In this document: piece after piece, positions 13,201 to 57,476 of the stretch
How positions within the stretch are numbered: the first letter of the stretch is position 1
Layout: each line of letters opens with the position of its first letter
Origin: Cyclospora cayetanensis
Lineage: Eukaryota > Apicomplexa > Conoidasida > Eucoccidiorida > Eimeriidae
Assembly: GCF_002999335.1 (NCBI RefSeq)
Contig: NW_020312763.1
Span: 1 to 64,000, forward strand
DNA: 64,000 nt
Direction of reading: 5' to 3'
Translations under genes and position numbers: made by a program
The notes under the pieces: model-generated
What the model saw: the letters and a program-made list of their open reading frames with translations, nothing else
Databases searched by the model: none
What the model was told of the DNA's origin: nothing

Positions 13201-13481
13201 GACTGCAGTGTTCGAAGGCGAAGTCGGAACTTGCCCGAGAGGCTGTCGCAGCCCCTCAGACACAATATATGCGATTTCCAAAGTATTAGTCCAGGAGTAT
13301 TTAGAATATATGGTTTCATCTTAATCTGAGTCGTAACTTGTATATGATCGCCCACAAGATATTTGCTGATCGAATAACCATCATCGACTATCTTGGGAGC
13401 ACAAGGGTAGCTGAGGCCCATGGACACAAATACCCATGTAAACAGCTATAGTACGGTGTTAGCACACCTTCAACAGTCAAA
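10297..13481. other. Intergenic, divergent promoters of Nup62 (-) and aconitase (+)
   Basis: About 3.2 kb separate two divergently transcribed genes, so both promoters must lie here. The sequence is comparatively AT-rich, with many stops in all frames. I see no recognisable exon, RNA gene or repeat. The frame leading into the aconitase start is closed by a TAG about 30 bases upstream, which supports the Met at 13482 as the first available start. Confidence 0.5.
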
Positions 13482-23635: not shown

Positions 23636-25233
23636 ATGAAGCGATCGAGTCAATCCCAGCTCGCCAATTTACTAGGTTTTTTCCTAGTAACCATTTCAGC
23701 GGTCCTCCAGTGCCATGCTAGTTCGACCTCAGGTACTTTTTGGATGTTCAACCATCTATTTTGGGGTTCACATGGGCGGAACGCGTGGTGCCACATGACG
23801 ATTAGAGCTGGAATAATACAGCGTCACACACAAATAACTGACGATGTGAAAAAGCGAGATTTGCACCAAACAGTATTTGATGGCTTGAAAAGTTTCGTGT
23901 TGATGCTTTCAATGAAAGCCCCTAAAAATCACTCTTGTGTGGCTAGGAACAGCCGTCACGCAGCATCGTAATCGTTTCTGCGTTGATGCACGTGCATTCA
24001 GATATCTTAAGGGGAAAGGCTACCGTCAGAGGCGATGGCTCTTGGGTGCGAGTGGACTTTCCTACTCCAATGAAAGAAGCACTAGTATTTTTAGGGTCGC
24101 TGGATTCTATTAGCGACTACAGCTTGGTACCTCAGGTGCGGACATGCCCCTAGCACTTGCAGAGCTGATATGATCGCTTCTTGCACAGCTTTCGGAAATG
24201 CTTTAAGCCACTGGTTGAATACTGTGTGTCTGATCCTGCAGGTGGGAGAAGTGGATAAAGACGGCTTCACTGTTCGAGTGACGGTGCCGTCTTGCGTAGT
24301 CACCGACCTGTCGAGGACTCACTTCTCTGTCCCTTACCTTGCGTGGAAAAAGACAAGCGGTTCGAATTACATTGCAGCGTCCATTACCCTGAAAATGACA
24401 AAAGGGTTATCGGGGTATGATACATACTCCCGCACGTACCACTTGGAAACTTCGATTGCTAAGAACGTATGCCATTCACTGCAATAAGTTCCCATACATC
24501 GAACAGCAGAGCATACACATGGAGTCATGTTGCAACGGAAATCACCAAACATGGCCAGCGCTGTCGCAGAATCATAAGCCTATCATACATAATGCTGCCA
24601 TCTGAAAACTGTTTGCTGAGTTGCGTTTTCTAGGACGACTATCTCACACTCATGCAGATTCAGAACATGAAGGCAGTTGAAGATGGTGCATCTGAGTTCA
24701 ACACAACACCATACGTGTCCGTCAGGGGCTTCACAAACCCAGCCACGCAATCTGTTACGTACTCTTTTTCAGACACTGTTTATTCAGTGGTTTCCTCTGT
24801 CAGTATTGCGGTTTTTATTATCGGCTCCGCTGGTCCCGCAAGTCTTGGAGGAGCCAAACTTCAAGTGGGTTGGGCACATAGCTTGTATTGATGCATAGGG
24901 TTCCCGCAACAAACGCTTGTTAAATGTAGATTGTGTGAAATCTTTCATAGCTGATCAGGCCACGGACACATACGAATAAGCTTGGTGGCACCTGCTCTGG
25001 TGTGAAAACTCAGGTCAAGGGAGATGTGCTTGTAGATTCTGGCGAAAAGTACTCACATGATCTAAACTCGCCTGTTCTAGCATTCATACAACCACGGGAC
25101 ACATCAACACCGTTTGCATTCACAGTTGAAGACTCTGATTCCGCGACGCATTTTGTGCCAAAGCTTAGACAAGGCTGCCACACCTATTTGACTGATACTT
25201 CACTAACGGCCTCCTATTTATTGCTCGCATACG
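23636..25233 (+). other. Protein A exons 1-5: signal peptide and N-terminal lectin-like extension
   Basis: Exons are 23636-23732, 24002-24135, 24242-24466, 24634-24864 and 25014-25233. Residues 1-28 are a signal peptide: charged MKRSSQSQ, a hydrophobic core GFFLVTISAVL, then a likely cut near CHA-SS. The next 270 residues are beta-rich with few cysteines, such as VRVDFPTPM, DGFTVRVTVP and VPYLAW. Their rhythm of F-x-x-P, GF-x-V and V-x-W resembles H-type lectin repeats. The match is by eye and tentative. Gene B has no counterpart to exons 2-5: its signal-peptide exon is followed directly by the first cysteine module. Confidence 0.75.
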
Positions 25234-28200
25234 GTAAGTCACACTGCATATTTAGTGCCTTATTCCTCCAAGACATCATTTAGATGCGAAATAGGATCTG
25301 TTGGACGCCTATGAGCTTGGGACATATGCTGGTTACTCCTCTAGGGGATTATGATGCACTGCTGCGTATGGGGTATTTCAACACAAATGCAGATGGACCG
25401 TCGGCTGTTCGTAATATGGGCCCAAATTGTCAGGATGCAAAGTCTACTTTGCCAAATCTCCTGCACACTTGTCAAATTGCATGCACGATGCTTTGGGACG
25501 AAAAGAAGGAAGATTACGTAACTTGCCTGGACCCGATGGAATGCTTTACTGCGGACTTCTCGACACCCTCAACCCTGGTTTCTGTTTTGAACAACGACGT
25601 GGAATTCCTGTTGGCCCAGAATCTATCAACAAATTGCTCTTACGGTAATACTCCACTAAGGTCCTCTTAAGCGGACTCAAAAACGGTCCATTGAGGGCGG
25701 AGGGCATACGCGTTGTAGCCTTATTAACAAAAGTAGTCTATCCCACAAGGAAGACAAAATTACGCTTTTTTTGTGCGTCTGGAACTTCACTCCTCAGCTA
25801 CAAGGCCATCTTCCTCCCGAGTGGACCAGTACAGTAAGCTTGATTGTGGCGTATGCTCAGTTGGACTCAAAGTCCTTCAGAACTTTCTACACTTGTGTAG
25901 TCGTCTGTGTGGCTGGATTGTTGGTATTTATGCAAGTACTGTTGCTCAATTCTACAGAATTTGAGAATGTTATCACGTGGAGCGATACCGTAAGCGGCAG
26001 TATATGGAGTACTGAGGAGGCGTGCGGCAAGCACAACATCCAGGTTGTGCAACTCCTCTTCAGCGATGAATCCATTTTTAACGGGAAGTCGACGGAAACA
26101 GAGGCATGCAAAACGCAAGACGTCACAGACTTAATGGTTTCTTTCTGTGGAGAGCAAGTAACTTCAACGTCAGGGGCATGCAAGGTATCGATGCTTGCTT
26201 TTACCAACGCGAGTTCCTCAACCTTGTGCCCAGCAGCTCCCAATCCATCGATGTTAATGCGCTTCAATTGCGATGCAAGTAAGGTCGATTCCACTTAATA
26301 TGCGCTCTACTGATAAGTATAACACATCGGGATATCTAAGCCATGAATTGAGAATTGAGGTTGTGTCCCTACCCGCAGCATATGAAGAGTCATCCTGTCT
26401 CGCTTTACATCCAGCTCAAGGTAGCTTCGCGACCACAGGTAATTGCAACGTTATTCGATCACCCTGATTCCCCAAAGTGCATCGCTTTGTGAAGTGCTTG
26501 TTCGCCTAACTGCACAGCGAATCACATGCTGCGGCTAGCTCAGCGCTTGCTTAAGCACATGAAATTTAGTCTTATAGCTCGAGTCGCATGACTCCTGCAA
26601 GTTGGTATGAATTTGCGTAGGCTCATGCAGCTGTCCTAGTGGCCGAGAGCAATGCAGTCTTGAGGTAGCAATTGTGGATACTAATTGGCGAAAGGGGCTG
26701 CCAGCTGGTCGAACGATACTGCTTTCCAACCCCATTACGTGAGCAGAAACTTTCAGAAAGAACACGTACCACGACTTCGCGTTTTCTTTCCTGTAGACCT
26801 ACAAGTTAATTGCCTCAACACAGTCTGCGGGAAGAACAGATGGTTGTAAGGCGACGAAATGACTTGTGATGCTCAACGTCACCTGTATTTCTCATGTTAG
26901 TATATTCACTGTTCTGAGGCCAGGTACAAAACAAGCGAGCAAAAATTTTCACTGGATTTTGACTTGGTGGTCGACTGCAGCTCCACCGATACATATATTC
27001 TCTGCCAAGGCAAGCTAAGTGAAGGTCGCTCCTCTCCGCCAGCTTGGCATATCAGAAGCATGATATGTTTCGTGCTGAGAGAGGCAGGAGCGGGCTCGTC
27101 CTTGAGACGCGTGTGTGCCCACCGCACCCGTTAGATTTGAGCAAACCTTACGACACATATGCGCAATATCAACGATTGCCACCAGAATGCGTGCTGGCTG
27201 TGCAGCGGAAGTGCCAAACACCGACGACAACGGCCCTCAATGTACGGAACTCGCAAACCCAGATCCAGAAACACTGGAAGGCGTTGTCTGCAAGAGCATT
27301 TGCCTTCAGTTATGGGAAAGCTTTAAAGATGAGTCATTGGCATCTTCGTCTCCGTATGAAGCATTCATGACACTCAAGAACAACTGGCATGCTGAAAACT
27401 TATGGGCTCTTCCGATGAATATTAATAACATCGCCGTGGACTGCACATACGGTAGGCCCACATCATTAGCGAAAACAACCTACAACAAAAGGCTTTTCAC
27501 CACGGTGGCACCATACCTGACCTTGAAGCTACGTTGTGTGCGCAGAGAAGCGGCCATATTTTTCTCCCGTTCCACAGTACCGTAAGTGGTCGCAGTGCTG
27601 TAACACGTGTATGATTGTTGAAAGCAGAAATCTTTGCACACCTCGAACGTTCACACTTCATCGGCTTCCTTGGGCTTTAATTTCTATATAACGTAGACAG
27701 TCTGAGAGACTCCACCAAAGGCATGCCTAGTAGAGTCTTAATGCTCATTTGCAGCACCTATTTGCTTTGTGTTTCGACCCTCAGAACGACAAACTACGTT
27801 CGCCAAAGAGGGTACAAAATTTTCCTTGTACAACCCATGCCCTGATACGTACACCACGGAGATCGTGGCCGCCGTTTATGGCTGCGAATCGGTAAGGCCC
27901 TGCCACTAATAAGGATATTGTGGTTCCTTTAACCTATGAGCATTTTTTGCTGGCAGTGTCGCAAGTGTACTAGTGTGTGCACAGTCTTAATGTTTTTGAA
28001 TATTATTCACAGTCACCCAGGGTCGCTTCTTTGTTCCGGGTAGCATCTCCTGTTAGCTCTGGGTGAGATGTAAATTGAAAATAACATTATCCGCCGCTGC
28101 ACTGGCCTGCATGCATAAAATGGACCCAAAGAGCATGCAAAAGCATAGCGGCTTCAGCTCTCTCTAGACACTCTGACCTGCTGGAGGGCATCAATCAGAC

Positions 28201-31200
28201 CGCAATTCCCTTGCAGGCTACTGTACCCCATTATTATTTTTCAGGTGCTCCTCAGCCAGGGGAAAAAAGCTGCCTGCGAAGTAAAGGATGTCACAGCGGT
28301 GCTGAATTCAGTATGCTCCTCCTTGAATACTGAAGATGCGAGTTGCACTATTGCTGAGGACCTGCTACCGTCGAAGACGGAGTTGTGTCCTTCCTGCGAT
28401 ACCTTTACTATGATGGCGTATTACAACTGCCGGATAAGTAAGTTTAAAGGCTAGCAGACCCGTTATGCCTCCTGTGATACGCCTATTTTAAAGTTCCTGG
28501 TATTACGCTTAGCAGCCTATAATATTAAACGTAGTCATGGGCCCTTGGTATTGGTTCTGATAAACACTCTTATGCAGAACGTTTTGCGTGCTTTCAGGCG
28601 AAAATACATTGGCAGGGTATGATATTTTTACGCATTCGTCTTCTGGCAGCTTAACTTACTCTGGCGACATCCCTTCCTGTGGATGTGTCGATGGGTCAAC
28701 GCCAGCCACCGAAGAGGAGGTCGTTGTGAGTTGGCATGCATCTGGCTCTAAGAAAATAAGCGTGCACTTTTAGGCTTAAGCACGCTCACGACTACCAGGA
28801 GCTATTTGACTGCCTTTCGCTCTTTTAGGCTAAATCATCCTGGAAGGCGTACCTTACTCCGCCAGCAACAGTACGCCTGGGTGGAGCTCGTAGCCTTTTT
28901 GTCGACAAAAATGGCAAGCTGGAATTCTCGATTTGGGCCCCCTCTTCGGATACAGACTGTTTGGACGACGATGTACAAGTTTTCTGCAAGCGTAAGACTG
29001 CTGCATGAATTCTAAGGGGAGTATCCAATGCGTGCTACCAGGACAGTCGGTAACAGTGCGGAGCAGATCCCAGTTGTAGCTAACCATTGAGCTCCCTGTT
29101 CTCTATGCCCTGAACAGGACCTTCCCAGACAGCTTCAGATGAAGGCATGATGAATCCTAGTGAGGTCAAGGGGCTTAAAAGCCTACACTGTTGGGTTCTT
29201 GGCTAAAATGAGTTATGGGTTAATCAGGTCTGGGTGTACACCCTTCAGGCAGGATGATTGACGGGGCATTTACTTGTATACTAATGCTTGGTACTGTTCT
29301 GACGGGTAACTCCCGGAAATACACATGCGAGAAAAAGCTCCTCTTGGCTATACTATCATCCACATGAAAATGAGTATTTTACGCGGCCGACTGTGTTAGA
29401 TTGTGCCCGCCTGCGCCATCAGCACCGCTCTGTGAAGAAGCTTACTCGACAAAAGTTTCCAGCGGCACTTTTCAGCATGAGCTATGCCGGGAGTATTGTG
29501 CTCATTTGCTAAAGGTGCGTACGCTGCTGTACAAAGCTTTTGCTCAAGAGATGAATAGACATAACGTGAGAGTCGTGGCTTTGGGTTTGTCAGTCGTGAA
29601 GCCTCCTCAAATGGCGAACACAGTTAGTGACAAAACGTCGACATCAGCGCGTGCGATGCTATTCAAACCCACAGAGGGCAATGTGTTTGCTGCTTGCTGC
29701 ATTGGCAGAATACATGCGCATCGGCAGAAAACAAGTGGGCTTGTGTTTTTGAGAATTCAACCAACTGCTACATCCCCAACTCCACGCGCACAACTTGTGC
29801 TATACGAGCGGTGTCTGCTGAGTATAATCCCAGCTTTAATAGCTGTGGATGCGAGAACGACCCCACTATGGAACCATGTACTGAAAGTGAAGTTAAAATG
29901 CTGTCCGTCGACTGGACTAGCGATTTTATGGAGCACTACCAAGGAAAAGAAGGCTTGTTGCTGCTGAGGAACATGAGGGTTATGGATGGCACAGGGTCAA
30001 TCTATACGGATTTCGGGGTTTCCCAAAATCTAGCCTGTACTCGTGCCTCAAAGTACAAAGGCATATTTTGTCGAGGTAACGAAATCGGCAGGCAATGCAC
30101 CAATTGCACCTCTCCACCCGTTGGTCCAAAGGTGACTAGGCGAGTTAATAGTGCTCCGCGAAAACACATCAATGCTCTTAATACTGGCAGTTTTGCATTT
30201 TGGTCGTTCCTTGCAGTGAACAGTGAGGCTGACTCCGTGGATCGAGCAGGTGTGCCGCACATGCTCTGCTTTCTTCAAAACACCCGCTCAACCTTCTAAG
30301 AGCTTCTGGGTTTTTGCTACTCATTATGTTCACCCATTGCAAGCCGCAGTACTCTTGCCAGAACGAAAACTTTGCATGAACTTCCTGCTGGGTGCGGTGT
30401 GCTATATTTTGCAGAACTAGAGCCTAATTGTGATGGCGCGGTTTCCACCGATTTAAGTAATGTATCCGATTATCAGTGCGCGTATTCATGCTACAAAATA
30501 TATAATCAGTGTCGAGAGCAGAATGACACAAGCATCGCATCGTGCTACTCGACGGCACAGAAGGACGACCCGACCTTACGGCAATGCAGTGTTCCGTTGG
30601 GTAAGTACGAACACGGCCAGTCTGCTGTAAGTGCCTATGCTGCTGCCTTGATTTGAAGAAATCATGGACACGCCCCTTTGTTGTTTCCAAACAGGCTGCC
30701 GTTGGCCGTTAATGTATCGAGAATCGCAAAGCCAGCATGTGTACTAGTCTACCTCAGGAGTGCTTTTGTGTGCAGTGCAGGAAGACCTTATCGAGGGTGG
30801 TAGGAAGAATGCTAGCGTCTCACCACTTGCTGCCAATATTCGTGCAAGCACTTCTTGTTACAGGAAAGGCACTGAGCAAATCGATTGGACAATCGCTATC
30901 TACGTCCTCAGTCCCGCTGAGGATGCGCTTCGGCATCAAAGTCTGTTTTAGGGTGTAGTGCGTGATGGGTTTATCGCAGAATCGAATATGCTCACCGGAG
31001 TGGTTGCGATAACGACGGAGTGGATAAAAGTGGCTTTCCCGTCTTTGGTTTTTCCTAACCCAGTGGTATTGACAGGTTAGAGCTTCGAGATCACCACTAT
31101 TAGGCTTCCGGGAGCTCAAAAGCACCTTCCGCTATGTCTCTTTATCGGATGACGAGGACCGATGCCGTGCCTCTGCCTAGAGTGCAGGGCGTCCTTAAAC

Positions 31201-34200
31201 AAGCGCTACTGCCTTTTCTTTCCGTTGATTTAGGTCTTATGGAGCCCCTCGATACCTTTGGGCAAGTGCAAATCACCGACGTGTCAGCCACTGGATTTAG
31301 TATTCGCTTAGCATTGGACTATTGCAGGATTGGTAAGTATTCAGGCTGAGCCCCAGTTGCAGTGTGCGCACAGGAGGACCACTAATTGCAGTTACTGGCC
31401 ATGAGGGTAGCACATCGTGTGCTAGTTTAAACCCTGTGGCGATACAGTGTTCGTCGCTCTGTGCACGTTCAGGCTATGCAGCTGCATATGCGAAGGCGAG
31501 CTGGCTTGCCGTATCAGAGGAGCGCTACGCGGTCTCGGGTTCCGGGACGCCATTTCGTGTGGGAACAATGGATATCACTATTGACAAAGATATGGATATT
31601 CTGCCTTTGATTCAAGTGCATTCCTCTAAGGTAGGCTGGATACAAGGAGTACAGGCCACTATGGCTGAAAGAGCGGCTTAAAAGCTTCCTAACAACAGCG
31701 ATAGGTCCTATCGGGAATGCAGCTGCCGGACTTTCACATGGTTGCTTCTTACTTGTCTAATGATTCTTCGCAGCCTCTATTACTGACGCAAATCCAAAAC
31801 ATTGCGAGCGACCTGCCGCCTACTGATATTCCATTCGTTACGATATCCCGCCTCGATGCCACTTTAGCAACCATCAGCGTTCATACCACATCTACAGCGG
31901 CGCAACAGAAGAAATTCACAGTCGGCTATCTTTACATGGACCAAATTGAAAGTACCGAGTGCTCCACCGGCTGCAAAACAAATAATCTGGCGTTAGAGGT
32001 GGGAGTTGCATGTACGAGGTTTCCCTATTCATCGCCTGCAAACTTGCCAATCCCCCGCTCCGTAAAAATTGAATGGCCTTTCTTTGAGGTGAGAAAGCAC
32101 GCTATGTGTAGTCGCTGTACGCCTTTGTCTTGCGGTGTGCTCACAGACGAAATCAGCTACACTTAACAAAAAAAAAAAATCCCCCGTATCGTATTCTGCA
32201 GAGAACTTTTCTCAAGCACCGTTGATGTTCGGTTCGATAGTGCCAACGAAAACAGATGGGAAAAAACGAATGCTTGCGCAAACTGGCTCTCAAGATGGCT
32301 CGACTAAGGCCCAGTGGACTCCCAAGGCTTTCGTTGTAACAAATGATATCTGCTCAGAGTTTGTGTTTCAAGAGGTACCATCTGGTTCTTCTACGCTAAG
32401 AATGGTTGCTCTTCACGTTCAATCGCGTGAGACACAGATTCGAATAGCCTTCTCCACCGGGAAAGTCAGGCGACAACCACGAGAAACCTATTGATAATGG
32501 CATTTCTATTGCATATAATCGTTTCTAAAAGCTTTCCCTATTCGACTGCATGTTCTTTTGTGCTCTGTGCTTGCCTCCAAATGGTACTCAGCATCACTTG
32601 CAGACAATGGAGAAGCCATACCTGGTACTGCAACATGCCTTGTAGATCGTTTAGACCTTTGCCCCTATACAATATTGCCTGCTATTCGACGTCTTCTATA
32701 AGAGCGCGGTTACCTGGCAGGGAAATAGCCCGGTAGCAGAATGTGAACAACGTGAGATAGTGTGCCTGCTGAGCTGCTCAGATATCACTCCGAATTGCAC
32801 CGAAGCCAAGCCCAAGAACGTAAGTTACGACCCTAGCGTTAAGGATTGCATGCGTGCTAGGCCTGTTGTATCATCTGTTAAGTGCTTCAATTGTGCTGAA
32901 AGCTCGAGCTGTTTTTGTACCTCCATCAAGCCTTCGCAACTTTCCAGTGCGCAGCATCACTGAGCTATGTGTATATGACACCACTTGGCTTTCCTTGTGG
33001 GTAATGATGCATGGCATAATGCTCTTCAGACTGCGGCCCATGATGTAGACTGCGTCAAGGAATGCAGCTCCTTATCTGCCTTGTGCCCACCACCCAATTC
33101 GTGGGATTGTTTTGTAGCTGCGGCTTCTGAAAAGCTCAAGGCCGACTGCTACATCGAATCATGTAGGCGACCCTTCCAGTGCTGGAAGAATTAGAGACCT
33201 CACGGGCGAAAAAGTACCCAAGGATCTTGTTGTAAGGATTAGCTAGGGAAATTAAAAATTCTACAGAGCACTTCTGTGCGTGTGCGCTTATGTTTGACAT
33301 GGGCATATGACAGACATTGATACTGGGCAGACCGTCACAACTTCGACTACTGTCCCTCCAATTGGAGGTAAGAGTTCTTGTCCGTTGCACTGTGAGCCTC
33401 CAACCCAGCAAGCCTTATAAAGTCGGCCAGGTCGGCGACTTTTGGTACTGTTGAGTGGCTTTTGTGTCAAATGCTATTTACGCAGATACCGTTCAGTGCA
33501 GAGTGGTCAACATGGAAGACGATGAATACTTCGCGGACGCAGGCTGGGATGTCAACGCCATGAGCTGTTTGTGCCCCCAAGGGTTCAGCCCCTGCACGCA
33601 GCAACAGGTTGAGCAAGATCGATCTTACTGGATTGAGGATGTGACACCATGGAGTCAGCCAAAACGCTGCTTCCCTGTTCCCGCACATAACGGCGCTTCA
33701 GCCTCCATAACAGTTCAAAAAGCTCAATGTTTGGAATGCAAAGCTCTACCCTTAAGGCATAGAAATCAGGCAAGGTTTACGTGTGGCCTGTGCATTTGTG
33801 GGTGCAGGCGACATATGCCGACTCTCGTATACAGTACAGCCAGTCGCCTGGGGATTTTTGCAGGTGGCAAACGACTTATGTATGAACTCGTCGAATCTTC
33901 AATGGGGGCAGCGTCAGCTGCCACTCTATTCCTTGAACGATGTGTATCTTGATAGAGGGTATAGAAGTGGCTACAACCAGTGTACGACAGATGTACTTTA
34001 TGTCTTTTGTCCAGGTAAGGCATCCTATGGAGCCGTGGACTTGGAGACATTCCTTTAGCTTTGACGTACTGTCTGACGGGCAATATCTGCACCTTCCTAG
34101 CTTGGCGGGCTTTCCCGTTACCTGTGCGATCATTGCTAGCTTGCGGCAACGGTGTCTGAGCCCGCAGCTGCTTCTCTAACCACCACAACAAGCACAGCGG

Positions 34201-43600: not shown

Positions 43601-46600
43601 AGAACAGGCTGGATAGCGCTGTGCGGGCTGCATGCGTGCTTCTCCGTGCAGTGCCATCATGCAGCAGCGCGTTTTCAACTGTGGAAGGGGCTTCAGCTGC
43701 GGATGATGAAGAATGCAAGACGCAGTGCTCGCAAAAAGCTGGCGGCCTGTGTGCAGCCTCCGCAAACATCTGGCTGTGCATCGCCAGGCAACTGCATGCG
43801 GAGTGCTACATTCCGAACAGAAACTCCCTCACCTGCTATATTGAATCTCCTGGCCCCGAAGATGCAAGCCATGGCACTTGCGCATGCAGCACTTCTTCCC
43901 TGGGGGCATGCACGTCTCTAGAGGCAGAAGTCACACACTTCGTGTGGCAGGAGAGTCTTTCCCAGTTCTGGGATGGCTCCGAGGGTGTCATTGTGGCAAA
44001 GAACAACCGCGCGCTGTGGCCTTCTGCAAAGGCCTCGTGGCACTATGAGGCTGGATCTCAGGCAGGCTTGTGTGAGCAAAAGCGATGGATCAAAGGTGTC
44101 TTTTGCTTAGGTTAGTTCCCTCCACCGCCTCTTCCTCCCCCCGCAGCCTTCACTCAGCTGCTCGCCGAACAAGGGTCGTCCTATCAGGATGCAGCTTTTG
44201 CAGCTTTTGCAGCTTTTGCAGCTTTTGCAGCTTTTGCAGCTTTTGCAGCTTTTGCAGCTTTTGCGTGATTGGCTTGCTTGCTGACCTGTAATAAAGTTTC
44301 GCTGGTTCGCTCGTGTGCAAAACTCCGCAGGCTCCGATAAAGAACTGCTTTCCCAGCGAGGCGGTGCGGCACCAGTAGCAGGGGGAGGGAAAGAGACAAA
44401 TAAAACCTTCAAAGGTTTTTCTTGTTGGCAGAATCGGGCAGCCGAGTAGTTGCACACAACAAAGCGGCAGGCACCACATTTAAAAAACGGTTTTTTTCGA
44501 GCTATACATCTCTCTATATACATATATATTTATCTATATGTATAAATGCATATACGTATATGTGTATATGTATATATGTATACGTACATATATGTATACA
44601 TGTATATGTATGTGTATATGTATATATGTGTATGTATATATGTATATGTATACATGTATATGTATATTTGTGTATGTATATATGTATATACGTATATATG
44701 AATATGTATATATGTATATGTATATATGTATATACGTATATATATGTATGCCTTGTCTGCTGCGGTTTACAGGCTCTCTTGCGCCAGACTGCAGCACTGC
44801 TGTAACGACGAATCCCCAGAAGGCAAGCACACTGTACTGTCAGTACTACTGTGGACACGTTGAGTGGGAATGTCGGGTTCTAATGATCCAAAAGCCTACT
44901 TTGTACAAGGATATCATGGAGTGCTTCAAGCAGCTACAGACGGAAAGCGCGCTGAAGTATTGCGAGCTTGACACAAGTGCGGCTGCAATGCCACGCTGCG
45001 TTTCGTAGGACTGTGCATGCAGAATACCAAGCTTCCCAGTAGAGAGTCCTTGCGTGTGTTACCATTGAGTGTCGAGGCATGAGACACTTCTTTTCTGCTC
45101 CTAGCAGACCATAACTGCCTTGCAAACGCTGTGTGCTGTGCTGCGCAACATTCTTCCAGCCACTCAAACACCAACGGCCGGAGGTATGGCATGTCTAGCG
45201 TCTTTCGGAAGTCCTCCTAGAGCGAGCTCAGGAGACTCTCTACACTCCCCGACGTCAAAGCAAGCTCGACAGACAAGCAACTCCACCCCTTTTCCTCCCC
45301 CCTCGCTTCACCCCCCCTGCCCCCGCTGCATGCGATCCGATTGCTGCAGCTGCCAACATGGCCGTTTCCTGGATGGTGGCAAGCGGCACTGAAAGTCAAG
45401 TTTTGTTTGCAGAACCCATTTATCCTCCCCCAGTTGTTTTCTCGGGAGCACCGCAAGCGCTAGCGGGAGTTCCCAAGCTAGCCATATCCGCAGTGACGTC
45501 CTACAGCTTTAAGGTGCAAGCCTTCGGAAGTATTTGCGGGTGTAAGCTGCTCACCGATACACCTAAAACGATAGCACTTGCGTTGCGCAGAGCGAAGATA
45601 TTTCCAGCTCTTTAGCACGATGGAAAGAGGCGGAGAGGCAATTGTGCAAGGGGCTCTTTTTTTGCGAGACGTGTGTCGGCGCTTTTGATCTGCAGCTTCA
45701 CCTCAAGCAGCATCAGCGGAGCTTAAAGTCGTGACCAGCTACTTAGCTCTCCCGCCAGGGCAGTACGTTGCGAAGCATTCGCCGATTCGACTTCTTGTCG
45801 GCAGTTTGAGCTTGACGCAGCTGGGAGCCTTCCAAATTCGCATTCCATTTGCGATTCAGCATCCTTCGAAGGTGAGAAGGCGAGGCTGCGTGGGGTGGCT
45901 TTCTTTCAGTCGAGCGCTTCTTCCCCCCCTCCCCCCCTTCCCGCTGGCTGCCGTCCTGCAGGAATTGGCGCTCTTCTTTCAAGCTCACCTCTGCACCGTT
46001 CGAGAGGGGCCTCCTGTTTCTGTTGCTCGACATTTAGCAAAGCAGACGGGGTCGACCTGCATGCGTGCCACTCTCCGCAGGCAGTTATCCTCTTAGAACC
46101 TCAAGCCGCTACAGGGCGGTTCCCTGCGGTGATTTTGGCGGCTTCTGCATTTAATCTGCTCGAATTAAATGCGCAAGGCCTTCAAGCGCGATTGTCGTGC
46201 ACGGAAGACTTCGCGTCGATAACTGTAGGCTACTTGATTGCCGACTTGTCGGAGGCTGGATCGAAAAGCAGTCCGCTGGCAGCGTCGCTAGGAGGCCGGT
46301 CCTTAGCGGTGAGTTATTTAGGGGAGAGTGGTAATGGAACGAAGATAAAGAGGGGGGGCAAGTAGAGGGGGTAAGTAGGGGGGTAAGTAGAGGGGGTAAG
46401 TAGGGGGGTAAGTAGAGGGGGTAAGTAGGGGGGTAAGTAGAGGGGGGCAAGTAGAGGAGAATTCAGTGCAGCGTAAAGCTTGTTTGAATGCGGCACGTCA
46501 AACCCCCCCTTTCCTTGTACGACGGGTTAGAGGGGCAGGAAGCGATTGTGGGCAGGAAGCGATAGCTTTAACCCTGCGAGGCAATAATGCAAACTGCAAT

Positions 46601-49600
46601 ATCCTTTGTTGGGCATTCTGCTCCTTCCTTCTCCCTCGACAAGCAAGCCAATCCTTAGCTCCTTCCAGGGAGCAAGCCAATCCTTGGCTCCTTCTAAGGA
46701 CCTCACACACTGTTGTATGTATGTGCCGACGACGTGAAGATTCGCGCAGGGCTAGTGCGCGGAGAAGGTGGCCGCACAAAAAGCTGTCGAGAGGGAAACA
46801 CGAACTCTCGCTCGGTGAGCTAGCTGGCATCGGGATGCTGTTCTGTTGCGCTGCTGCTCGCAGCTCTTCGATTCGACACAAGTCGATTTGGCAGCCATAC
46901 CGTTCCCCGAGAACCTGCCCACGTTCTTTACCCCCCACTTTTTTCCGCAAGTCGCAAGAGTTGGCTTTGACGGAAACGAGAAGTACTCCATCCAGTGGAA
47001 GGCAAGCGCAGACAGTGCAACGTGGACGCCATCCGCCTGGATGGCCTTGTGCGGCACAGATGAGCTCTTGTCTTTGATGCCTCACTCCATGCTGACGTTT
47101 ACGGGATTGTACATCGACGCCAGTAAGCACTCCGGCAAGGCCAGACGAGCGGCATTAGGAAATAATAATCTGAATCGACGGCGTTATGTACCGCTGCCCC
47201 TTTCAGAAAGCTTCAGAGCCATCGTGAAGACATGCATTCCACACCAAAAAACGGTCCTCCTTTTTTCAAGGCCGCAACACACGTGCAAAATTGCTTCGTG
47301 CACGCTGCATTCGCGGCTTGTTTGACATATGCCATGGTTTGTCAGTTGAGCTGCATTTGCGGCATGTTCGACATATCTCATGGTCTGTCATTTGAGGTGC
47401 ATTTGCGGCATCTTCGACATATGCCATGGTCTGTCATTTGAGCTGCGTTTGCGGCATGTTCGATATCCCATGGTGTGTCAGTTGAGACACGTTTGCGGCA
47501 TGCTTGATATCCCATGGTGTTTCAGTTGAGACACGTTTGCGGCATGTTCAATATGCGGTTTTTTCCGTTTGCGTGATCTTGCAGTTACTCAGATGAGCGC
47601 AACCTCCCGTAAGTGCAGTTTTGATTGCCTTTTGGCCGTGGCAACCTCGTTTTTCACGGTTCTACTTCTTCTCGCAGAGGCGCAGCTGCCGCGTCTCATG
47701 ACATGCTTTTTACACACCACTGGTCACTTTATGACCGTCATTCTGCTGTTCTTGCCTCGGCCTCGAACATCTGCCTGCCTGTGGAATTTGTGCTGCCGCA
47801 GCGTTGAGCAGCATCTGCAATGTCAAAGCAATAGAGGTTTGCTCGCACGCAATGCGTTTTCGTACTTGGTCCTTTCCCCATGTGGCAGCCCTGCCTCCCA
47901 CCCCCTTCCCCCCTCTAAAGATATGAAAATCAGAGCTTCGCAGAATGCAATTTCAATGTGTCAGAGAGACAAACGCCCATAAAAATGTTCTGTGTAGGAC
48001 AAGGCCTTGACCGACGCAGAATGCACAGAAATGTGCTCGGGAGTCTTTCAACTGTACTGCTCCAATTCATCAAATCCTGCATATTGTATTGAATTGCATT
48101 CTCCAAAGGACTTCCTTGATTCTTGCACCTTACCACGTAGGTTGCAGCAAACCACCAGTCCTAGACAGCCACAGAGACACTCTTCTGCTGTCTAAAAGTT
48201 CATGCATTTCGCCCACTCGCGTTTCTTCTGGCGCTCAGGGTATCTCCCCATGTACATGCGTGTAGGCCACACGCAGCCCGTGCACAAACCCGAAGTGGCG
48301 CTTGAAGAGTCCTCTTAATCAAATGCCGACTTTCTCAGAGCTTTCTGTTCATGTGTGTATGTATGTGTGTATCTTTGTGTCTGTGTATCTATGTCTCTGT
48401 GTATCTATGTCTCTGTGTATCTATGTCTCTGTGTATCTATGTCTCTGCGTATCTACGTGTCTGTGTATATACGTGTCTGTGTATCTACGTGTCTGTGTAT
48501 CTACGTGTCTGTGTATCTATGTGTCTGTGTATCTACGTGTCTGTGAATCTATGTGTGTATGGGTTTATTCGTTGGCGCATTTTCCATGGATTTGCATGGC
48601 CCAGGATTTGTAGTCTTGCAATCATGTGTTTGCGATTTGTTTCAAGAGCTGTTGCGGAGTGCCGTGGAGGAAAGTGTGTCGCAGCGCCCATCCTTAACTC
48701 TGAAAGGGCTACCTAGAAAAGGCGTTTTTTGTAGTTCTTGTGTTTTGCGTGGCCTCTCTCAGAAGAGGACATGCCTTCCGATGAGGCTCAGGGGGAAACG
48801 AGCGGAAAGCGTGAGGAACGTTTGCTGGTTTTTTTCTTTGAGGCAGGACGGTTGTTACTACTTCGAGGCGGTCCTAGGGCCAGCAGTAGTATGCGTTTTC
48901 TTTCATTTTTTGCGTGGCATCGCGCGCACGCATGCATGCGTTTATTTACCGCCTCCGTCCGTCACAGCGGGGCTGCTGCTTTTGCTGCAGCAATGGAGGA
49001 TGCCGAGACAAGCGCGCAGTGTCGCGTAGTCGACATGCGGAAGTATCCCTCAGATCTTGCGTGGAATTCGGCTGCATTTACGTGTGGGTGTCCAAGCCAC
49101 GCCGTGCCTTGCACGTCGGCTGAAGCGGGGCGAGACTTGGCGTGGCTCCGCGATTTGCGCTCTAAAGGCGGCCTCTGCGAGAAGGCGCCTGCAGAAGTCG
49201 TGCAGCCTGTAGTTCAGGAGTATTGGCAGCTGTCTGTGGACGCCTGTTCGCTAGAGTCGAGTGGAAATGTGTATTTATCGTGGATTAAAAAGACGTATCC
49301 CGCGTATCCGGATCTTCCAGGACCTGGAACTGGTCAAGAGTCGCTCAGCGGCTCTCACCTTTGTCAGTACAGCACTCCTTTCGTCTTCTGCCCCGGTGAG
49401 CGTATGCCTTGGGGGAGAAGGGGTGGCAGTGGCGGCTGCTGCTGCTTGCATGCATGCGTGCAGGAGCTGTGCGTGCCGCTCATTTTGCGGAGCGGCGAGC
49501 AGGGGCAGGGTGCTCTTCTTACAGCTGGGAGCCGCGGCAGGCGGGAAGGGCTGCCTGCTGCGGTGAGGCCTTCTGTTGATTGACTCGAGAGGAGTCGAAA

Positions 49601-52600
49601 AAGAGGCTTCCGCTGCCTTTTTCCTGCAGCAGAGCCACTGCCCTTTTGCTTTTCGAACTGCAGCGCAGGCTACTGGGGAGGAACTCGACGAAGAGAAGAA
49701 GGAGGAGGCTTCAGGCAGCGATGCTGCCCTTGACCCCCCTTCCTGCTACGAAAGCGAATGGGGAGACTGGTCCGCCTGCAGTGCGACTTGTGTAGCTGGG
49801 GACGGCTCAACTCCGTATCGCCACAGAACAAGAATCCCCCTTGTCGCCGATGGGCTCAACACGGCCGTCAGCTGCATTCTGGAAGAAAGCATGCAGTGTC
49901 TAGGACTGCTGCAGCAATGCGAAGGGTCTTGCTGGACGGCCGACTGGTCCCAGTGGAGTGCATGCGCGTTGGTGCTCAAAGACAGAGAAGTCATCAAGGC
50001 GAGGCGGCGATACAAGCCGGTATTTGCGGGCGCCAAGTACTGCAAAATCGACGAGATCCAGCAATTCCTTCCATGCGAATCGAGTGAGACAGTGCTCCTC
50101 CAACGCACATCACAATGCTCACGACACCCCTCACAGATCGTGCATGTATGTTGAACATGCATTCTCCACATTAGGCCCAGCCATGCAAGTTTCGATGCGC
50201 TGTCTTTTTTTATCTCTTTCGCTCTGTCTGTCTCTCGCTGGCAATAGCCTTACAGATGCGCAGACTCCCTCGTATGCACAAATGCTTTTAAAAACCGTGA
50301 TTTCGAGAGAGCACGCTTGCCATGTGGCAGTGGATGTCTTTTTTTGAACAGAAGACGAAATCCAGGAGAAAGCAAGCGAAGCGGGAAGTCCCCAATTCGC
50401 TGAAGTTTTTTCTCTTTCAGAAAGCACCGTAGAAACTTCAGACTGGTCAGGATGCGACGTGCCGTGAGTATCGCTCCTTCGCACATTTTGTCTCTCATGG
50501 CGCATGCATCGCAATATGCTTAAAAAGCCCAGCGTTTCCTAAATAAAGGACGACCTAAGGGCACGTTCGAATTTGCTCGCCATGTATGCAGTTGACAACT
50601 GCGCTCTGTAAATGGTGGTATGTGGCAAACATTTCCAGCGACTACATAGGACAGTGCATGCGGACGCTGGCAGCTGATTTTTCTTTCTGATGTCTCGTGG
50701 GGTACGTACACCCCATGTTAGCTGCTGAAAAGGCCTCTTCAGTGGACTTGCATCTTTTGACCATTCTGCATGCCTCAGGTGTTTACTGCCAGCCGTTCAT
50801 ACGGCGGTACAGTTCAGGATTCAGAGAACTAGCAGTCCTGCGTCCTCATCAGGTCGGCGACTACGCATGGCTCGGAATAAAACCCCTTCGCCCCCCCTTC
50901 CCACTCCCCGTTTCCCCCGCTTTCCTCAGCTTCTGTCGGATACAGTCTTCTTTCAAGCGTTGGAAGGAGGCGACACATTAGCAGAGACAGGGGAACTGTT
51001 TTCGAGAGGCGTGTTAGGGGCTGTGGTGATATCTGCGTAGAAACCCCCTACCGGCATCAGATTTCAATAGCCTGCATGCATGTATGTATGTGTGTGTATC
51101 TACATGCATGTGAATGTGTGTGTATGTGTGTGTATCTATATGCATGTGAATGTGTGTGTATGTGTGTGTATCTATATGCATGTGAATGTGTGTGTATGTG
51201 TGTGTATCTACATGCATGTGAATGTGTGTGTATGTGTGTATACATGCACGTGTGTGTGTGTATACATGCACATGTGTGTGGGTGTATATACATGCATGTG
51301 TATGTGTGTGTGTGTTTTGTGCATGTATGTATGCATGTGTGTGGTGGTCTAAGCGGATGTCGGTGCAGTCGTGACTACGAGACCTTGTGCTAGCGTAGAA
51401 AGCCTTGAAGAGTGCAGCAGCGCTTCTTTCGATCTTGGTGAGAGAAGATATGTACGTGGAAGTCGTAAATAAATGTTTGTACGAAAAATACGTGCGACGG
51501 CCTGTTCCTGCGAAGGGCAGCGTACAAAGGGTATGTGCTTTCGCTGTGCGCTTCAGACTGCTCTCAAGCGACTCCTGTTCACGTCGATTCTCAGTCCGGT
51601 GATGCCTGCGTGAAAAAGTGTGAAGCAGTGAAGCAGGCGTGCACAAAGCTATTAGAAAAGAACGCCTTAGAATCGCCGTTCAAGAGCTGTGTCCTCTCCG
51701 AACTTGCGTCCTCGGAGTTCTACCTTACTTGTAAATTCTCTGGAGCTCTCCAGACTGGTAAGGCAACGCTAGAGAGTTGTTAATTTTTCCACTAAACCTG
51801 CCGTTCGTGAGCTGGATAGCCGCCACAGGTTTAAATAGCGAGCTTTGTTAAGAGAAAGCCCAGGCAACTTCAAGGCAGTGCAGGGGGCCTCCCTGTTTTG
51901 CCTTCTCTTTCATATATATATATTATAGATAGATATACATAGATATGTATATAGGCGGGCATGGCACATTGCATTGCAGTTGGAAACGGGTTTGTCGGGT
52001 AGTGCATAGCTTCGAATGCCGCGTGTGTTGCCCCTCCGTCAGCTAGAAGGAGCGCACTTACCCGCTACGCATGCACGGGATACAAGAGAGTATTTGGGAA
52101 AAGCACTCTTCTGCTGAGGGCTGTGTATGTCTGCACGGGGGTGTCATGCGGGCACCCTGTCGCCAAGGCGTGTTTTTGTCTGCATGCAGCGCGACAGGTG
52201 GCATGCAGACCGACCTTTACCAGAATTATCGATCCAAGCAGCCGATACGCCTTCCTAAAAAATACAGCTCCTGATGAAGAAACGTCGGCAGACACGGGAA
52301 GCGTCGAAGATTCGCGCTTGCCCGTCAGCTGTGCGTGCTTGGAGGACGGCCTGGAGCCGTGCAGTGCAGACGACATCGTTCAAGACTGGCTAAATATCCG
52401 AAATGCCTTACTAGGGGCTAGTGGGCTTTGCACGACAGCACTTGCCCAAGAACCACTGTGGCAGCGCTCTGAAGAGAGTGCGACAAAAGCTCCAGATTCA
52501 AGTATTTTTTTAGCATTTGCAGGTCTGGGTAGATTCCACTGTCCCCTGCATACGTCCATCAAAGACACGACGGCTGACTCTCAGGAGCGCTTCACTTTCA

Positions 52601-55587
52601 CGCAGTTTGCCAGCACGGAGAGCCTCAACGACTTCTGCCAGCACGGACTGAACTATTGGGAAGGCGTAGAAAACCCCTTGACTTGTAAGCCAGCGGCTTT
52701 CCGCGATGGGTGTCTACACGCTGCCGCTCCAGACGCTTGTTACAGCCGCTGACAGAGGCGTTTTGCACGAGCCGAGGGACTGCCCTGGCCGCTTGAAGAG
52801 CCTTAACTCCAACCTTTCATTGCTTGTGGCTTATTATTATAGCTGCCGCTGCTGAGACGCGCGCAGACACGAGGATGCCAGACTGCTCGGGGGCGATGGC
52901 AAAGAACTCCGAAGGACCTGAACCAACAGAAGGCACTGTGTTTTGCCAAGACTTATGCAGAAAGCTGCTACGCGCATGCATTGCCGAAGCTCAAGAGTTT
53001 TCGTACGAAGCGTGTTTGATTAGGCCATTTGAGACCCCAGAATTCGCGGACAAATGCACGCTTTCGCCCGGTAGGCTCTCCCTGTTTCTGCATCAGAGAG
53101 CTAACCGTTCCATACACCATGCCAGAAGGGCGCGTCCTCTCCTTCACATGTTAGTTTTCCCCCCAAAGCCAACAAAATACGGCGGGATACACAATTAATG
53201 CTGCAACCTCGAAGCTCCTTTTTGCTCGTTTGTCACTTGCCGCAGTGGCCGCTGGAAACGGAGTCATTCTATGCAAGGGTAAGAGCGTGCGTAGGCGGCC
53301 GAAAAATTCAGCTGCAGACGCCTGTGCTTTCTCTGCCATAAATTCAAGTTTTATTCCCGTCGCCATGAACTCAAGTGTTATCCCCGTCTTTCCTAAATAT
53401 ACGTCCTCTGCACTTCCCTACCATTTTTTTGCATGAGAAGGCGCTTTCTTGCTCTGCTGACAGAAAAGGAACCCAAGTGCGAGTTTACTGAATGGAGCGA
53501 ATGGTCGGCCTGCTCATTGAGGTAAGAAGAAAAAATGTTTGGCGACTCTTGGCTGCCTCATTCTTGTCATAAAAGTCAGCGCAGTTCATGAGTTGTGCGG
53601 CAGGGATCGCTCATATAATACTTCAGTAGGGAGAGCCGTAAGAAGTAGTGTCTTCTGAACAGGACGCGTTTGCCTTTTTCTGGCCGGCAATGCCGCCCTT
53701 CAATGAGATTATGGTGCGCAATATTAATGTTGACGGGTTAAATGTCGTCGGTAAAACTTTACCTTTTCCCGTGATTCCTATACGTGCCTATGCTACAATT
53801 CTGCGCAGCTGTATTCCAAGTGCCGGAAATGTAAGCTCGTCGGTGCGAATAAGGACCCGCGAAGCGCTAGAGTATGGAAAGAGATCATTTAAGTGCCGTG
53901 ATTTCTCGCTTGCTGGTAAGCAGCTTGTGTAAGTTTCCTGCGATGCTCGCCTTCGACAAGCGCCTCTGATTACGTGGAAAGTGGAATTGGTGGCCGCCTT
54001 GAAGGGTTGTAGGGAAGCAGGTGCAGGAAAACGCACTAGAGTATTATCTGTGAAGGGTTGCTTCCAGTTTGTGCCTGATGCAGGAACGGTGGAGACGAGT
54101 GTGTGCTCGGCTACACCTTTTTGCGGTGCGTTGAAATAGGGGCCCCTCGGTTAGGAGATAAGGAATGCAATAACAACTAAAATGCAATACATATACGCGC
54201 GCTTTTTGCTGCGCTGTTCCTATTGCTAGCCCTCTGTTTTCATGACGCCACTAGTGAGGGCCCACTGTCCGACTTATCAGCCTTCGAGCTGGGTGACTTG
54301 TTTTCGTTTTGCATGTAGTTCAGATGCTGTGTGTGTTCTGCAATACCGATTTCAAAGCATTAGCGTCATTACAATCTCTCACTCGCTTGTATCTCCTCCT
54401 CTGCCAGTTCATTTTCTGCATGTACTTTGCGGCTGCACTTGCCAGATCCCAGTGCGGAAAGCGACCTGTTGGTGCCTGCCACGTTTACCACCAAGGCCCC
54501 TCCGCTTCTTGAGGATTGGAGCCCGGAAAGCACAACCACAAAGCCACCATCAGTAGATCGGAATAGCATTCCTGCGGACATCACTCCTCAGCGTTGCACT
54601 TTTGTTAACATGGACGCGGAAGGCGCGACGAAGGAATACGACATATCAGTGCGCCTGTGATGCGTCATGGGGAATGCCGTTCTAGAACGCTAGCTAGAGC
54701 TGTAAAATTTGAAGCAGTACCTCCGAAATGCGCAATCTTGGCTTTTTTCTGCGCGTAAATTGCCTTCAGACCGATTCGTGCTCTTGCCCCAACGGGTACC
54801 GACCATGTTTCAGAGGAGAGGCGCTCTTGGCTGGGCAAAACTGGCAGACTGACGCGTACAAACTTTGTGCTTCTCTTTCCAACGGCACCATTGGTGCAAG
54901 AAACTTTGAGCAGTACAGTTGCGTTTTCCGCGGTTTTGAGAAAGACCTGACTGTGGATGCCGCGTCGAGCGTCGAGGAGAAGGAAATTTTTTGCGCCAAG
55001 GCTAAATACATGCTCTGTGCGGGTGAGAAATCACGGAACTTCATATGGCGGCTGCGTAAAACTTGAGTCAAACTGCTCAGCACAATGGGGTCACCGTCAT
55101 GCCCGCATAATGGAATAGTTACCGGCCTAGACCCGCAAATGCGCAGAACTGCACCCAGCCACACAGGTATGCATTCAAATATGTAAACGCAATCATAAAC
55201 TGACTCTTGTTTGTTCTGCTGTGTTGCTGTTGCTCATGCTGAACAGTTAGTGACCCTGGAATCGCGGCTGAAAACGCCACAGTATTTCTCATTACTTGCC
55301 TCTGCCTTGGGGCCTTCACAGGCATTGTAGTAGCATACATTTCCCTGCAATACAGCATAGACCTGCAGAAGCTGGTGGGGCTGAGGGGGAGGTATGCAAC
55401 TATTAGTCTCGAGCTACAGCAGTTGAGGGAGAAGCGTGATGAAGAAGAAAGCGAAGAGGCTCTACTTCTCAACTCCGACGATAAACATACAGAGCCGGAT
55501 GTCACTCCAGACTCCGTTCCCGCGTACGAGGGTGATGAAAATGACAGTGCGCCCGTGCGGCGAAATTCGTTAAGGAACTTGCAATAA
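39431..55587 (+). CDS. Lectin/TSP1 modular type I membrane protein B, paralogue of A, about 2,100-2,300 aa
   Basis: This is the tandem paralogue of protein A and again a predicted secreted or surface adhesin. Exons traced by phase total about 6.4 kb of coding sequence; their coordinates are in the regional entries. Order: signal peptide, module C, SUEL lectin, module B, linker, module C, SUEL lectin, modules B, C, B, C, H-type-lectin-like cluster, module C, module B, two TSP1 repeats plus part of a third, module C, module B, module C, a fourth TSP1, linker, module B, transmembrane helix, acidic tail of about 70 residues. Differences from A: no N-terminal lectin-like extension, an extra module B and linker after the first SUEL domain, fewer introns in some modules, and a longer tail. 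Unresolved parts are 44977-45349, 47123-47997 and 50464-51556. The introns carry many minisatellites that gene A lacks. Confidence 0.85.
40856..42619 (+). other. Protein B: module B, Thr-rich linker, module C, second SUEL-type lectin
   Basis: Exons are 40856-41116, 41268-41327, 41644-41847 and 42311-42619. The first is a clean module B ([21 protein letters not shown]). The second is a Thr-rich linker. The third is module C ([13 protein letters not shown]). The fourth is a SUEL-like domain ([17 protein letters not shown] ... [14 protein letters not shown] ... FVSWNC) encoded by one exon, where gene A uses two. The module B and linker have no counterpart at this point in gene A. The 316-base intron at 41328-41643 is mostly a TG/TATG microsatellite. 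Confidence 0.78.
41405..41605. repeat. Intronic TGTATG microsatellite
   Basis: About 200 bases alternate TGTATG, TGTG and TGCATG words on the + strand inside the intron before the 41644 exon. The open frames across it are artefacts of the repeat. The exon acceptor lies 38 bases after the repeat ends. Confidence 0.9.
44187..44265. repeat. 9-bp minisatellite resembling a string of splice acceptors
   Basis: The unit CTTTTGCAG is repeated seven times perfectly, with a degenerate eighth copy, inside the intron 44111-44772. Every unit is a pyrimidine run followed by GCAG, which is a 3' splice-site consensus. The acceptor that fits the reading frame is much further on, at 44772. Confidence 0.95.
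44512..44755. repeat. Intronic TATATG/TATACG microsatellite
   Basis: About 240 bases of alternating TATATG, TATACG and TATATC words run up to the acceptor of the 44773 exon. Only about 18 bases, including the pyrimidine-poor GGTTTACAG, separate the repeat from the exon. Confidence 0.92.
45350..47122 (+). other. Protein B: H-type-lectin-like cluster
   Basis: Exons are 45350-45541, 45696-45871, 46081-46308 and 46864-47122, joining in phase. Low-cysteine beta-rich sequence includes [46 protein letters not shown] and a closing SAWMALCG. The order matches exons 19-23 of gene A. A possible extra exon near 45108-45183 did not fit the phase, so 44977-45349 is left unresolved. Confidence 0.65.
46351..46456. 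repeat. Minisatellite resembling a string of splice donors
   Basis: The core GGGGTAAGTAG recurs six times, flanked by two variants with GGCAAGTAG, in units of about 11-15 bases. It starts about 40 bases after the donor at 46309 in the intron 46309-46863. Each core contains G|GTAAGT, the optimal 5' splice-site consensus; the variants contain the GC-type donor. Confidence 0.95.
47313..47556. repeat. 44-46 bp minisatellite, five copies
   Basis: Five diverged copies begin GCGGC(A/T)TGTT and contain CATATGCCATGG or a shortened ATATCCCATGG, followed by TGTCA and TTGAG. The last two copies share the shorter form, so the array has two subfamilies. It lies in intronic sequence between 47122 and 47998. 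Confidence 0.9.
47998..49395 (+). other. Protein B: module C and long module B
   Basis: Exons are 47998-48136 and 48991-49395. The first is the second half of a module C ([15 protein letters not shown] ... SCTLP). Its upstream partner, expected to carry P-N-C, was not found: small candidate exons at 47585-47608 and around 47.68-47.81 kb do not chain cleanly. The second is a module B ([21 protein letters not shown] ... VFCPG) in one exon, where gene A has an intron. The 854-base intron between them holds a 16-bp minisatellite. Confidence 0.72.
48350..48562. repeat. 16-bp minisatellite (TGTCTCTGTGTATCTA type)
   Basis: Roughly a dozen tandem 16-base units differ mainly at TATG/TACG and TCTC/TGTC positions. 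The array lies in the intron between the 48136 and 48991 exon borders. Because 16 is not a multiple of three, it opens frames in all three phases, none of them a gene. Confidence 0.92.
49664..50463 (+). other. Protein B: acidic linker, two TSP1 repeats and start of a third
   Basis: Exons are 49664-50083 and 50352-50463. After a Glu-rich linker comes TSP1-1 ([13 protein letters not shown] ... RHRTRI ... CLGLLQQC), then TSP1-2 ([12 protein letters not shown] ... ARRRYKP ... QFLPC), all in one exon. The second exon has another acidic stretch and begins TSP1-3 ([10 protein letters not shown]), cut in phase 2 exactly as in gene A. A continuation exon near 50779-50852 contains either CLLPAVH or YCQPFIRRY depending on frame; I could not decide, so 50464-51556 is unresolved. 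Confidence 0.85.
51072..51330. repeat. 36-bp minisatellite, about four copies, with flanking TG repeats
   Basis: The unit TCTA(C/T)ATGCATGTGAATG plus a TG-rich half repeats every 36 bases. Since 36 is divisible by three, both strands show spurious frames encoding 12-residue repeats. It lies in the unresolved intronic interval before the 51557 exon. Confidence 0.92.
51557..54125 (+). other. Protein B: module C, module B, module C and fourth TSP1
   Basis: Exons are 51557-51757, 52190-52684, 52843-53070, 53246-53278, 53464-53521, 53809-53915 and 54084-54125. They carry module C ([13 protein letters not shown]), module B ([20 protein letters not shown]), module C ([14 protein letters not shown]) and TSP1-4 ([10 protein letters not shown] ... 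VRIRTREAL ... GTVETSVC). The order and phases equal exons 35-38 of gene A, but TSP1-4 is split by introns that A lacks. A short TATA/TAGATA run at 51911-51960 sits in the first intron. Confidence 0.85.
54446..55587 (+). other. Protein B: linker, last module B, transmembrane helix and acidic tail
   Basis: Exons are 54446-54648, 54770-55022 and 55247-55587. The linker is Thr/Pro/Ser-rich with [10 protein letters not shown], related to LEDWSADI of A. The middle exon is module B ([22 protein letters not shown] ... MLCAG), uninterrupted where A has an intron. The last exon has transmembrane [22 protein letters not shown], juxtamembrane [16 protein letters not shown], then a charged helix ([19 protein letters not shown]) and an acidic Pro/Ser tail ending in a basic patch ([10 protein letters not shown]). 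Confidence 0.9.
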
Positions 55588-57431: not shown

Positions 57432-57476
57432 AGGCATCCATCGTTTGATTAATGACGAATCAAACGATGGATGCCT
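57432..57476. repeat. Perfect 19-bp inverted repeat across the G-patch start codon
   Basis: The left arm is 57432-57450 (AGGCATCCATCGTTTGATT) and the right arm 57458-57476 is its exact reverse complement, with a 7-base loop AATGACG. The first ATG of the frame (57452) lies in the loop and the second (57467) in the right arm. In RNA it would form a stable hairpin over the initiation region. Confidence 0.95.

Follow-up and report, generated by a model that had tools for sequence, protein, structure and literature searches.

Positions 23636 to 55587 of a 64,000-nucleotide stretch of the Cyclospora cayetanensis genome (contig NW_020312763.1 of assembly GCF_002999335.1, positions 1 to 64,000 of the forward strand; hereafter the window) carry a long run of exons for cysteine-rich membrane proteins, which raises the question of how many genes lie there and to which family they belong. 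The region very probably contains two members of the MIC15/RDF1–MIC14/RDF2 family, here called genes A and B, which lie side by side and encode giant type I membrane proteins that are likely parts of the cysteine-repeat modular protein (CRMP) complex for rhoptry discharge. The family traits found in both proteins are a pair of N-terminal repeats, each about 300 residues long, TSP1 domains within the C-terminal half, a transmembrane helix followed by a short tail, and cysteines conserved despite low sequence identity.

Gene models of the tandem pair

Gene A extends from an ATG at 23636 to a TAA stop at 38308-38310 (window 23636-38310, +), a span defined by the matches and summed bits of the Eimeria mitis protein P0003 and by the stop, and gene B extends from an ATG at 39431 to a stop at 55585-55587 (window 39431-55587, +), as delimited by the matches and summed bits of the Eimeria stiedai protein P0005. 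The two genes are collinear on the same strand, with about 1.1 kb between them, and each has a signal peptide, its own stop and a single C-terminal transmembrane helix. The signal peptide of gene A is encoded by exon 1 (23636..23732, +; the 3' end was placed by eye from the donor site), as identified from the sequence, its 19-residue mean hydropathy of 1.66 and the Eimeria N-termini; that of gene B lies in its first exon (39431..39547, +; the 3' limit is the end of the open frame and not an exact splice site), with a mean hydropathy of 2.61 over 19 residues. At the other end, the helix, tail and stop occupy 38122..38310 (+) in gene A, where helix hydropathy reaches 3.08 over 19 residues and the cytoplasmic tail has about 25 residues, and 55243..55587 (+) in gene B, where the corresponding values are 2.33 and about 79 residues. 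The initial annotation had described an adjacent same-strand pair at 23636..55587 with a signal peptide and one transmembrane helix per protein; its coordinates are right, and hydropathy supports both ends of A and B. The size of over 2,000 residues that it gave is reasonable when judged from the relatives (2191 and 2289 residues for A, 2205 for B) rather than from joined exons of the window.

Comparison with the public C. cayetanensis proteins P0001 and P0004 shows identity of at least 95% in 61 of the 74 alignments kept at a threshold of more than 80% identity, the remainder probably running over splice edges. P0001 (4115 residues) spans both genes, joining A to B past the A stop and the B signal peptide, and P0004 (2298 residues) corresponds to gene B, starts upstream and omits the B signal peptide; it also seems to retain intron sequence. 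The hydrophobic part of the signal-peptide exon of gene B is absent from both models. Because P0001 fuses A and B and neither model keeps that exon whole, the two-gene arrangement of the initial annotation is better than either public record.

If the path of P0001 through both halves were taken at face value, the locus would be one gene for a single protein of about 4,100 residues, which is extremely improbable. The fused model skips an in-frame stop located just after the transmembrane helix and tail of A, at the point where two Eimeria orthologues (E. praecox and E. mitis) end, and it skips the signal peptide that gene B possesses in its own right; moreover, P0004 and the E. stiedai protein P0005 each represent gene B alone. 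The single fused gene is accordingly rejected on the A stop, the B signal peptide and the existence of gene-B-only proteins. The Eimeria orthologues of gene A also have a hydrophobic N-terminus that starts at the same position as gene A exon 1.

Paralogy and orthology

Open pieces of A and B match each other 33 times at E<=0.05, whereas 50 residue shuffles average 8.2; the stricter threshold of E<=1e-5 leaves seven matches, and the shuffles none. Six of these seven are collinear, and in the remaining one P1 from gene A matches P2 from gene B. The similarity thus lies far beyond the shuffle expectation and upholds the reading of the two genes as paralogues. Across three A–B protein pairs, 26-27% of positions are identical and 82-86 of 110-123 cysteines are shared.

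Orthology was assessed by summing tblastn bits at E<=0.01, with overlapping pieces counted. The E. praecox protein P0002 scores 2359 bits with A versus 307 with B, E. mitis P0003 scores 2341 with A versus 444 with B, and E. stiedai P0005 scores 2216 with B versus 310 with A. By these sequence matches, the E. praecox and E. mitis proteins are assigned as orthologues of gene A and the E. stiedai protein as the orthologue of gene B. Across the genome (43.2 Mb, 392 contigs), 22 of the 23 P0003 matches fall within gene A and cover 70.9% of P0003, and 19 of the 21 P0005 matches fall within gene B and cover 80.8% of P0005; with these two queries every match lies on this contig, and no third copy was found. 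Over an exon core shared by four sequences (E. mitis is excluded, as its model lacks part of the core), identity is 64% between Cyclospora A and E. praecox A and 60% between Cyclospora B and E. stiedai B, versus 28-29% in all four A–B pairs. These core identities indicate that the duplication predates the Cyclospora–Eimeria split.

Relation to MIC15/RDF1 and MIC14/RDF2

Passages of Possenti et al. (2022, PMC9218915) describe MIC15/RDF1 and MIC14/RDF2 as coccidian paralogues and list C. cayetanensis MIC14 as XP_026191791 and MIC15 as XP_026191793, numbers two apart, with a similar listing for E. acervulina. The link to MIC15, which the initial annotation had offered as a hypothesis, is therefore well supported by these listed members, as it is by the architecture shared with coccidian MIC15/MIC14. 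Compared by published description, T. gondii MIC15/RDF1 (TGME49_247195) and MIC14/RDF2 (TGME49_218310) likewise form a paralogous pair with two cysteine-rich N-terminal repeats of about 300 residues, TSP1 near the C-terminus, one transmembrane helix, a short tail and many exons. According to the same passages, the T. gondii paralogues are 19% identical with about 82% of cysteines conserved, and their 25 exons are perfectly conserved. They differ in layout, with about 1.6 Mb of chromosome XII between them (PMC9218915), whereas the Cyclospora genes stand in tandem about 1.1 kb apart, and in size, with 2,909 residues for MIC15 and 2,344 for MIC14 versus about 2,200-2,290 for the Eimeria relatives.

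Which gene corresponds to which paralogue can be assigned only weakly, with A as MIC15 and B as MIC14. The assignment is made because the H_lectin hint described below occurs in A only; an H-type lectin domain is reported for T. gondii MIC15 in the passages of PMC9218915. Tail lengths weigh against it, since they point the opposite way (25 residues in A and 79 in B, versus 180 in MIC15 and 97 in MIC14).

Functional data come from T. gondii. As reported in these passages, loss of MIC15 heavily impairs rhoptry discharge and leaves attachment unaffected, tachyzoites express hardly any full-length MIC14, and up-regulation of MIC14 restores rhoptry secretion after MIC15 loss (PMC9218915). Subfunctions of the tandem pair, suggested in the initial annotation from its retention and diverged ends, are plausible; what has been published for T. 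gondii points to partial redundancy. One form of such a division, compatible with family membership and a serious though not favoured possibility, is that A and B are interchangeable complex parts used in different invasive stages, one in the sporozoite and the other in the merozoite. The old duplication with its diverged ends and tails speaks for this split, as does the behaviour of MIC14, which is scarce in tachyzoites yet able to rescue secretion.

Parts of two further reports place T. gondii MIC15 in the CRMP complex (CRMPA, CRMPB, MIC15 and TSP1), probably through interaction with CRMPA (PMC9815656, PMC9670195). The Cyclospora genome contains, in addition to the tandem pair, two loci that could be CRMPs on the basis of their domain matches. 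Specifically, Kringle matches at E<=0.01 occur at two places, C326:432101-432280(-) and C342:164655-164849(+), and each is followed, about 3-6 kb along the same strand, by matches to PF07699, which defines candidate loci at C326:426191-432280 (-) and C342:164655-170972 (+). PF07699 matches without Kringle occur on C363, C93, C375, C329 and C223. The two systems differ in that Kringle is reported for CRMPA in T. gondii in these sources, versus two Kringle loci in Cyclospora.

Module architecture of the ectodomains

The six-row family alignment was cut into 23 slices, fixed before comparison, and all 253 pairs were compared by hhalign; not all six rows are present in every slice, and the K1 slice has its gene A rows out of register. 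The 26 most probable slice pairs all fall within the assigned module classes, the first cross-class pair being H4-T4 (E 0.024); pairs 1-17 exceed 60% probability and pairs 18-26 are weak, declining from 48% to 6%. The resulting order is signal peptide, H1-H2 (in A only), K-S-P, K-S-P, K-P, K, H3-H5, K-P, three TSP1-like stretches, K-P, K, TSP1, P, transmembrane helix and tail. The recurrence of two cysteine modules, K and P, along the ectodomain of both proteins was not in the list of the initial annotation, nor was the additional H-like region at the N-terminal end of gene A.

The extra N-terminal H-type-lectin-like region of gene A (H1, H2; 23986..25241, +), of which H1 can be aligned with the H modules of the mid region and which gives no above-cut-off Pfam match, is followed by two tandem cysteine-rich K-S-P repeats, measuring 297 and 276 residues in P0005 at the slice limits set here. 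Repeat-to-repeat matches in hhalign are strong (P1-P2 E 3e-13, S1-S2 E 8e-8, K1-K2 E 1e-7). In gene A, repeat 1 (25386..27017, +) comprises K1 25386-25664, the SUEL/rhamnose-binding-lectin (RBL)-like module S1 25942-26295 and P1 26617-27017, and repeat 2 (27187..28993, +) comprises K2 27187-27474, SUEL/RBL-like S2 27784-28442 and P2 28585-28993. In gene B, repeat 1 (39652..41121, +) consists of K1 39652-39951, SUEL/RBL-like S1 40305-40679 and P1 40825-41121, and repeat 2 (41637..43045, +) of K2 41637-41861, SUEL/RBL-like S2 42190-42627 and P2 42722-43045. The following K3-P3-K4 modules occupy 29425..30599 (+) in A and 43585..44990 (+) in B, where the strongest exon match to A is located (E 7.9e-13).

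The mid region H3-H5 lies at 30958..32464 (+) in gene A, with a weak H_lectin signal from H3, and at 45346..47133 (+) in gene B, where it is H-type-lectin-like by alignment with A and gives no Pfam match. PF09458 (H_lectin) weakly matches two of the eight H copies, Cyclospora A (E 0.053) and E. mitis A (E 0.12); the best score is 14.1 bits against a cut-off of 24, and none passes. A six-frame search of the whole genome with PF09458 at E<=10 returned nothing, which, the search running exon by exon, is no proof of absence, and the H-module alignment profile found nothing relevant among PDB sequences. The H modules show no mutual match in the hhalign comparison, so that their kinship rests on a separate alignment. 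The H-type lectin identity in the initial annotation is thus at best weak: two sub-cut-off matches speak for it, and the unmet cut-off and the empty PDB profile search against it.

Modules K5-P4 (33033..34020, + in A; 47986..49430, + in B) lead into the TSP1-like stretches T1-T3 (34230..35309, + in A; 49735..50527, + in B), which are followed by K6-P5-K7 with T4 at 35615..36859 (+) in A and 51517..53929 (+) in B, and by P6 at 37235..38003 (+) and 54445..55033 (+), respectively. By alignment, each gene has four TSP1-like stretches in its C-terminal half, some of them degenerate, where the MIC14/MIC15 family is characterised by two to three TSP1 domains. A first profile search with TSP1_spondin matches both genes below the cut-off, at 7e-10 in A and 4e-6 in B; in the genome profile search, T4 of gene A (36713-36859) passes it at 42.7 bits, and the Eimeria orthologues also pass a TSP1 cut-off. 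The TSP1 domains proposed in the initial annotation are therefore confirmed; T4 of gene B, TSP1-like by alignment, lies at 53454-53929. Single-sequence searches found nothing relevant except TSP1, and an AlphaFold prediction of P0005 residues 1-1184 from four sequences (predicted local distance difference test score, pLDDT, 30.1) gave no usable H, K or P fold.

SUEL/RBL-like modules and the sugar site

Each of the two N-terminal repeats per gene holds one S module. PF02140 matches two of ten S copies (17.7 and 16.7 bits, best E 0.0047; cut-off 31.4), and the remaining eight are without a match. A six-frame search of the whole genome with PF02140 at E<=0.001 found nothing, which is no proof of absence for an exon-by-exon search with no control match, and the S-module alignment profile gave no relevant match among PDB sequences. 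The fold evidence comes from a single modelled copy, E. mitis S2, which is not one of the window's own; its predicted structure has a pLDDT of 88.7 and a predicted template modelling score (pTM) of 0.79. Among its Foldseek matches, rows 1-12 are all RBL-fold domains, with probability 1.00 to latrophilin lectin domains, and P113 matches as well. VIA-align places RBL-fold domains in rows 1-10, PfRIPR residues 390-476 among these; RIPR is absent from the best 50 Foldseek matches and was found by VIA-align only. The S module, as modelled from this copy, is thus predicted to have an RBL-like fold. The SUEL domain of the initial annotation is supported as a fold for one modelled copy and falls short of the Pfam cut-off (17.7 versus 31.4 bits). 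The modelled module resembles the SUEL/RBL domains of latrophilin, CSL3 and SUL-I (PF02140) in fold and in the weak Pfam match of two copies, and the S modules differ from them in scoring under the cut-off and in lacking GTY.

The YGR and DPC motifs occur in none of the ten S copies. GTY, the sugar-site motif of the rhamnose site (PMC7482062), is likewise found in none of them, so that the S modules more likely dock proteins than bind sugars. Plasmodium P113 also lacks GTY, and passages of its description judge it unlikely to act as a lectin (PMC7482062); the sugar-binding role proposed in the initial annotation is accordingly not supported. These results bear on an unlikely alternative, namely that A and B are host-glycan adhesins whose SUEL, H-type lectin and TSP1 domains fasten the parasite to sugars of the host, independently of a trigger for rhoptries. 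The SUEL fold predicted for one copy, the weak H_lectin signal and the TSP1 domains are what such adhesins would have; against them stand the absence of all three motifs, the H copies of which only two give even a sub-cut-off match, and the unimpaired attachment after MIC15 loss in T. gondii (PMC9218915).

For the preferred reading, a rhoptry-trigger role, the A and B proteins would reach the apical surface of the parasite and be held in the CRMP complex, where the long disulphide-rich ectodomain would dock to partner proteins, and perhaps a host ligand as well; contact would then cause the complex to signal rhoptry exocytosis. The paired SUEL/RBL-like modules would most likely serve protein docking and not sugar binding. 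By analogy with T. gondii, the same rhoptry-discharge role for the Cyclospora proteins, with S modules that dock proteins, is most likely.

Plasmodium RIPR (L1/L2) and P113 similarly contain two RBL-fold modules per protein, as described in parts of PMC10794152 and PMC7482062; they resemble the S modules by fold only, and RIPR carries EGF-like domains. Among the papers listed by the literature searches, whose coverage was incomplete with subscription journals mostly missing, none reports an RBL/SUEL fold for MIC14/MIC15.

Surrounding genes and other loci

Eight tandem-repeat arrays are located within the gene B span (41408-41577, 44190-44264, 44513-44750, 46353-46454, 47304-47554, 48358-48556, 51081-51311 and 53335-53388), most of which look intronic; none is listed within the gene A span. 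Upstream of the pair lie an open frame of 650 residues that matches Nsp1_C and FG repeats, which marks it as an Nsp1-type nucleoporin (window 8350-10302, -), and the exons of an aconitase gene (window 13452-16507, +). Downstream, G-patch and RRM open frames occupy window 57449-58624 (+) and 61222-62373 (+), respectively. No RNA families or tRNAs were found within the window. Elsewhere in the genome, 15 of 37 TSP1_spondin matches cluster at C158:38997-46336(+), probably as one large multi-TSP1 gene.

Significance

Genes of this kind are already known, and passages of PMC9218915 list the C. cayetanensis members. What is added here is the side-by-side arrangement of the two genes, a corrected reading of the public models P0001 and P0004, and the RBL-like module pairs. 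Because laboratory culture of Cyclospora is difficult, correct gene models matter. Tandem adjacency would fit an origin by tandem duplication followed by separation in the Toxoplasma line.

The RBL-like fold bears on the question of what the rhoptry trigger of coccidia senses: once a fold is named, the 'cysteine-rich repeats' become docking modules that can be tested. It also suggests that the ectodomain of MIC15/MIC14 has a structural counterpart in the RCR complex of malaria parasites. More speculatively, and with the balance tilted against it, paired RBL-fold docking modules may be a unit common to apicomplexan invasion proteins, represented by R1+R2 of RDF1/RDF2, L1+L2 of RIPR and the N-terminal pair of P113. 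If this were true, one structural element would be shared by the rhoptry trigger of coccidia and the RCR complex of malaria parasites, and comparison of sequences would have overlooked it.
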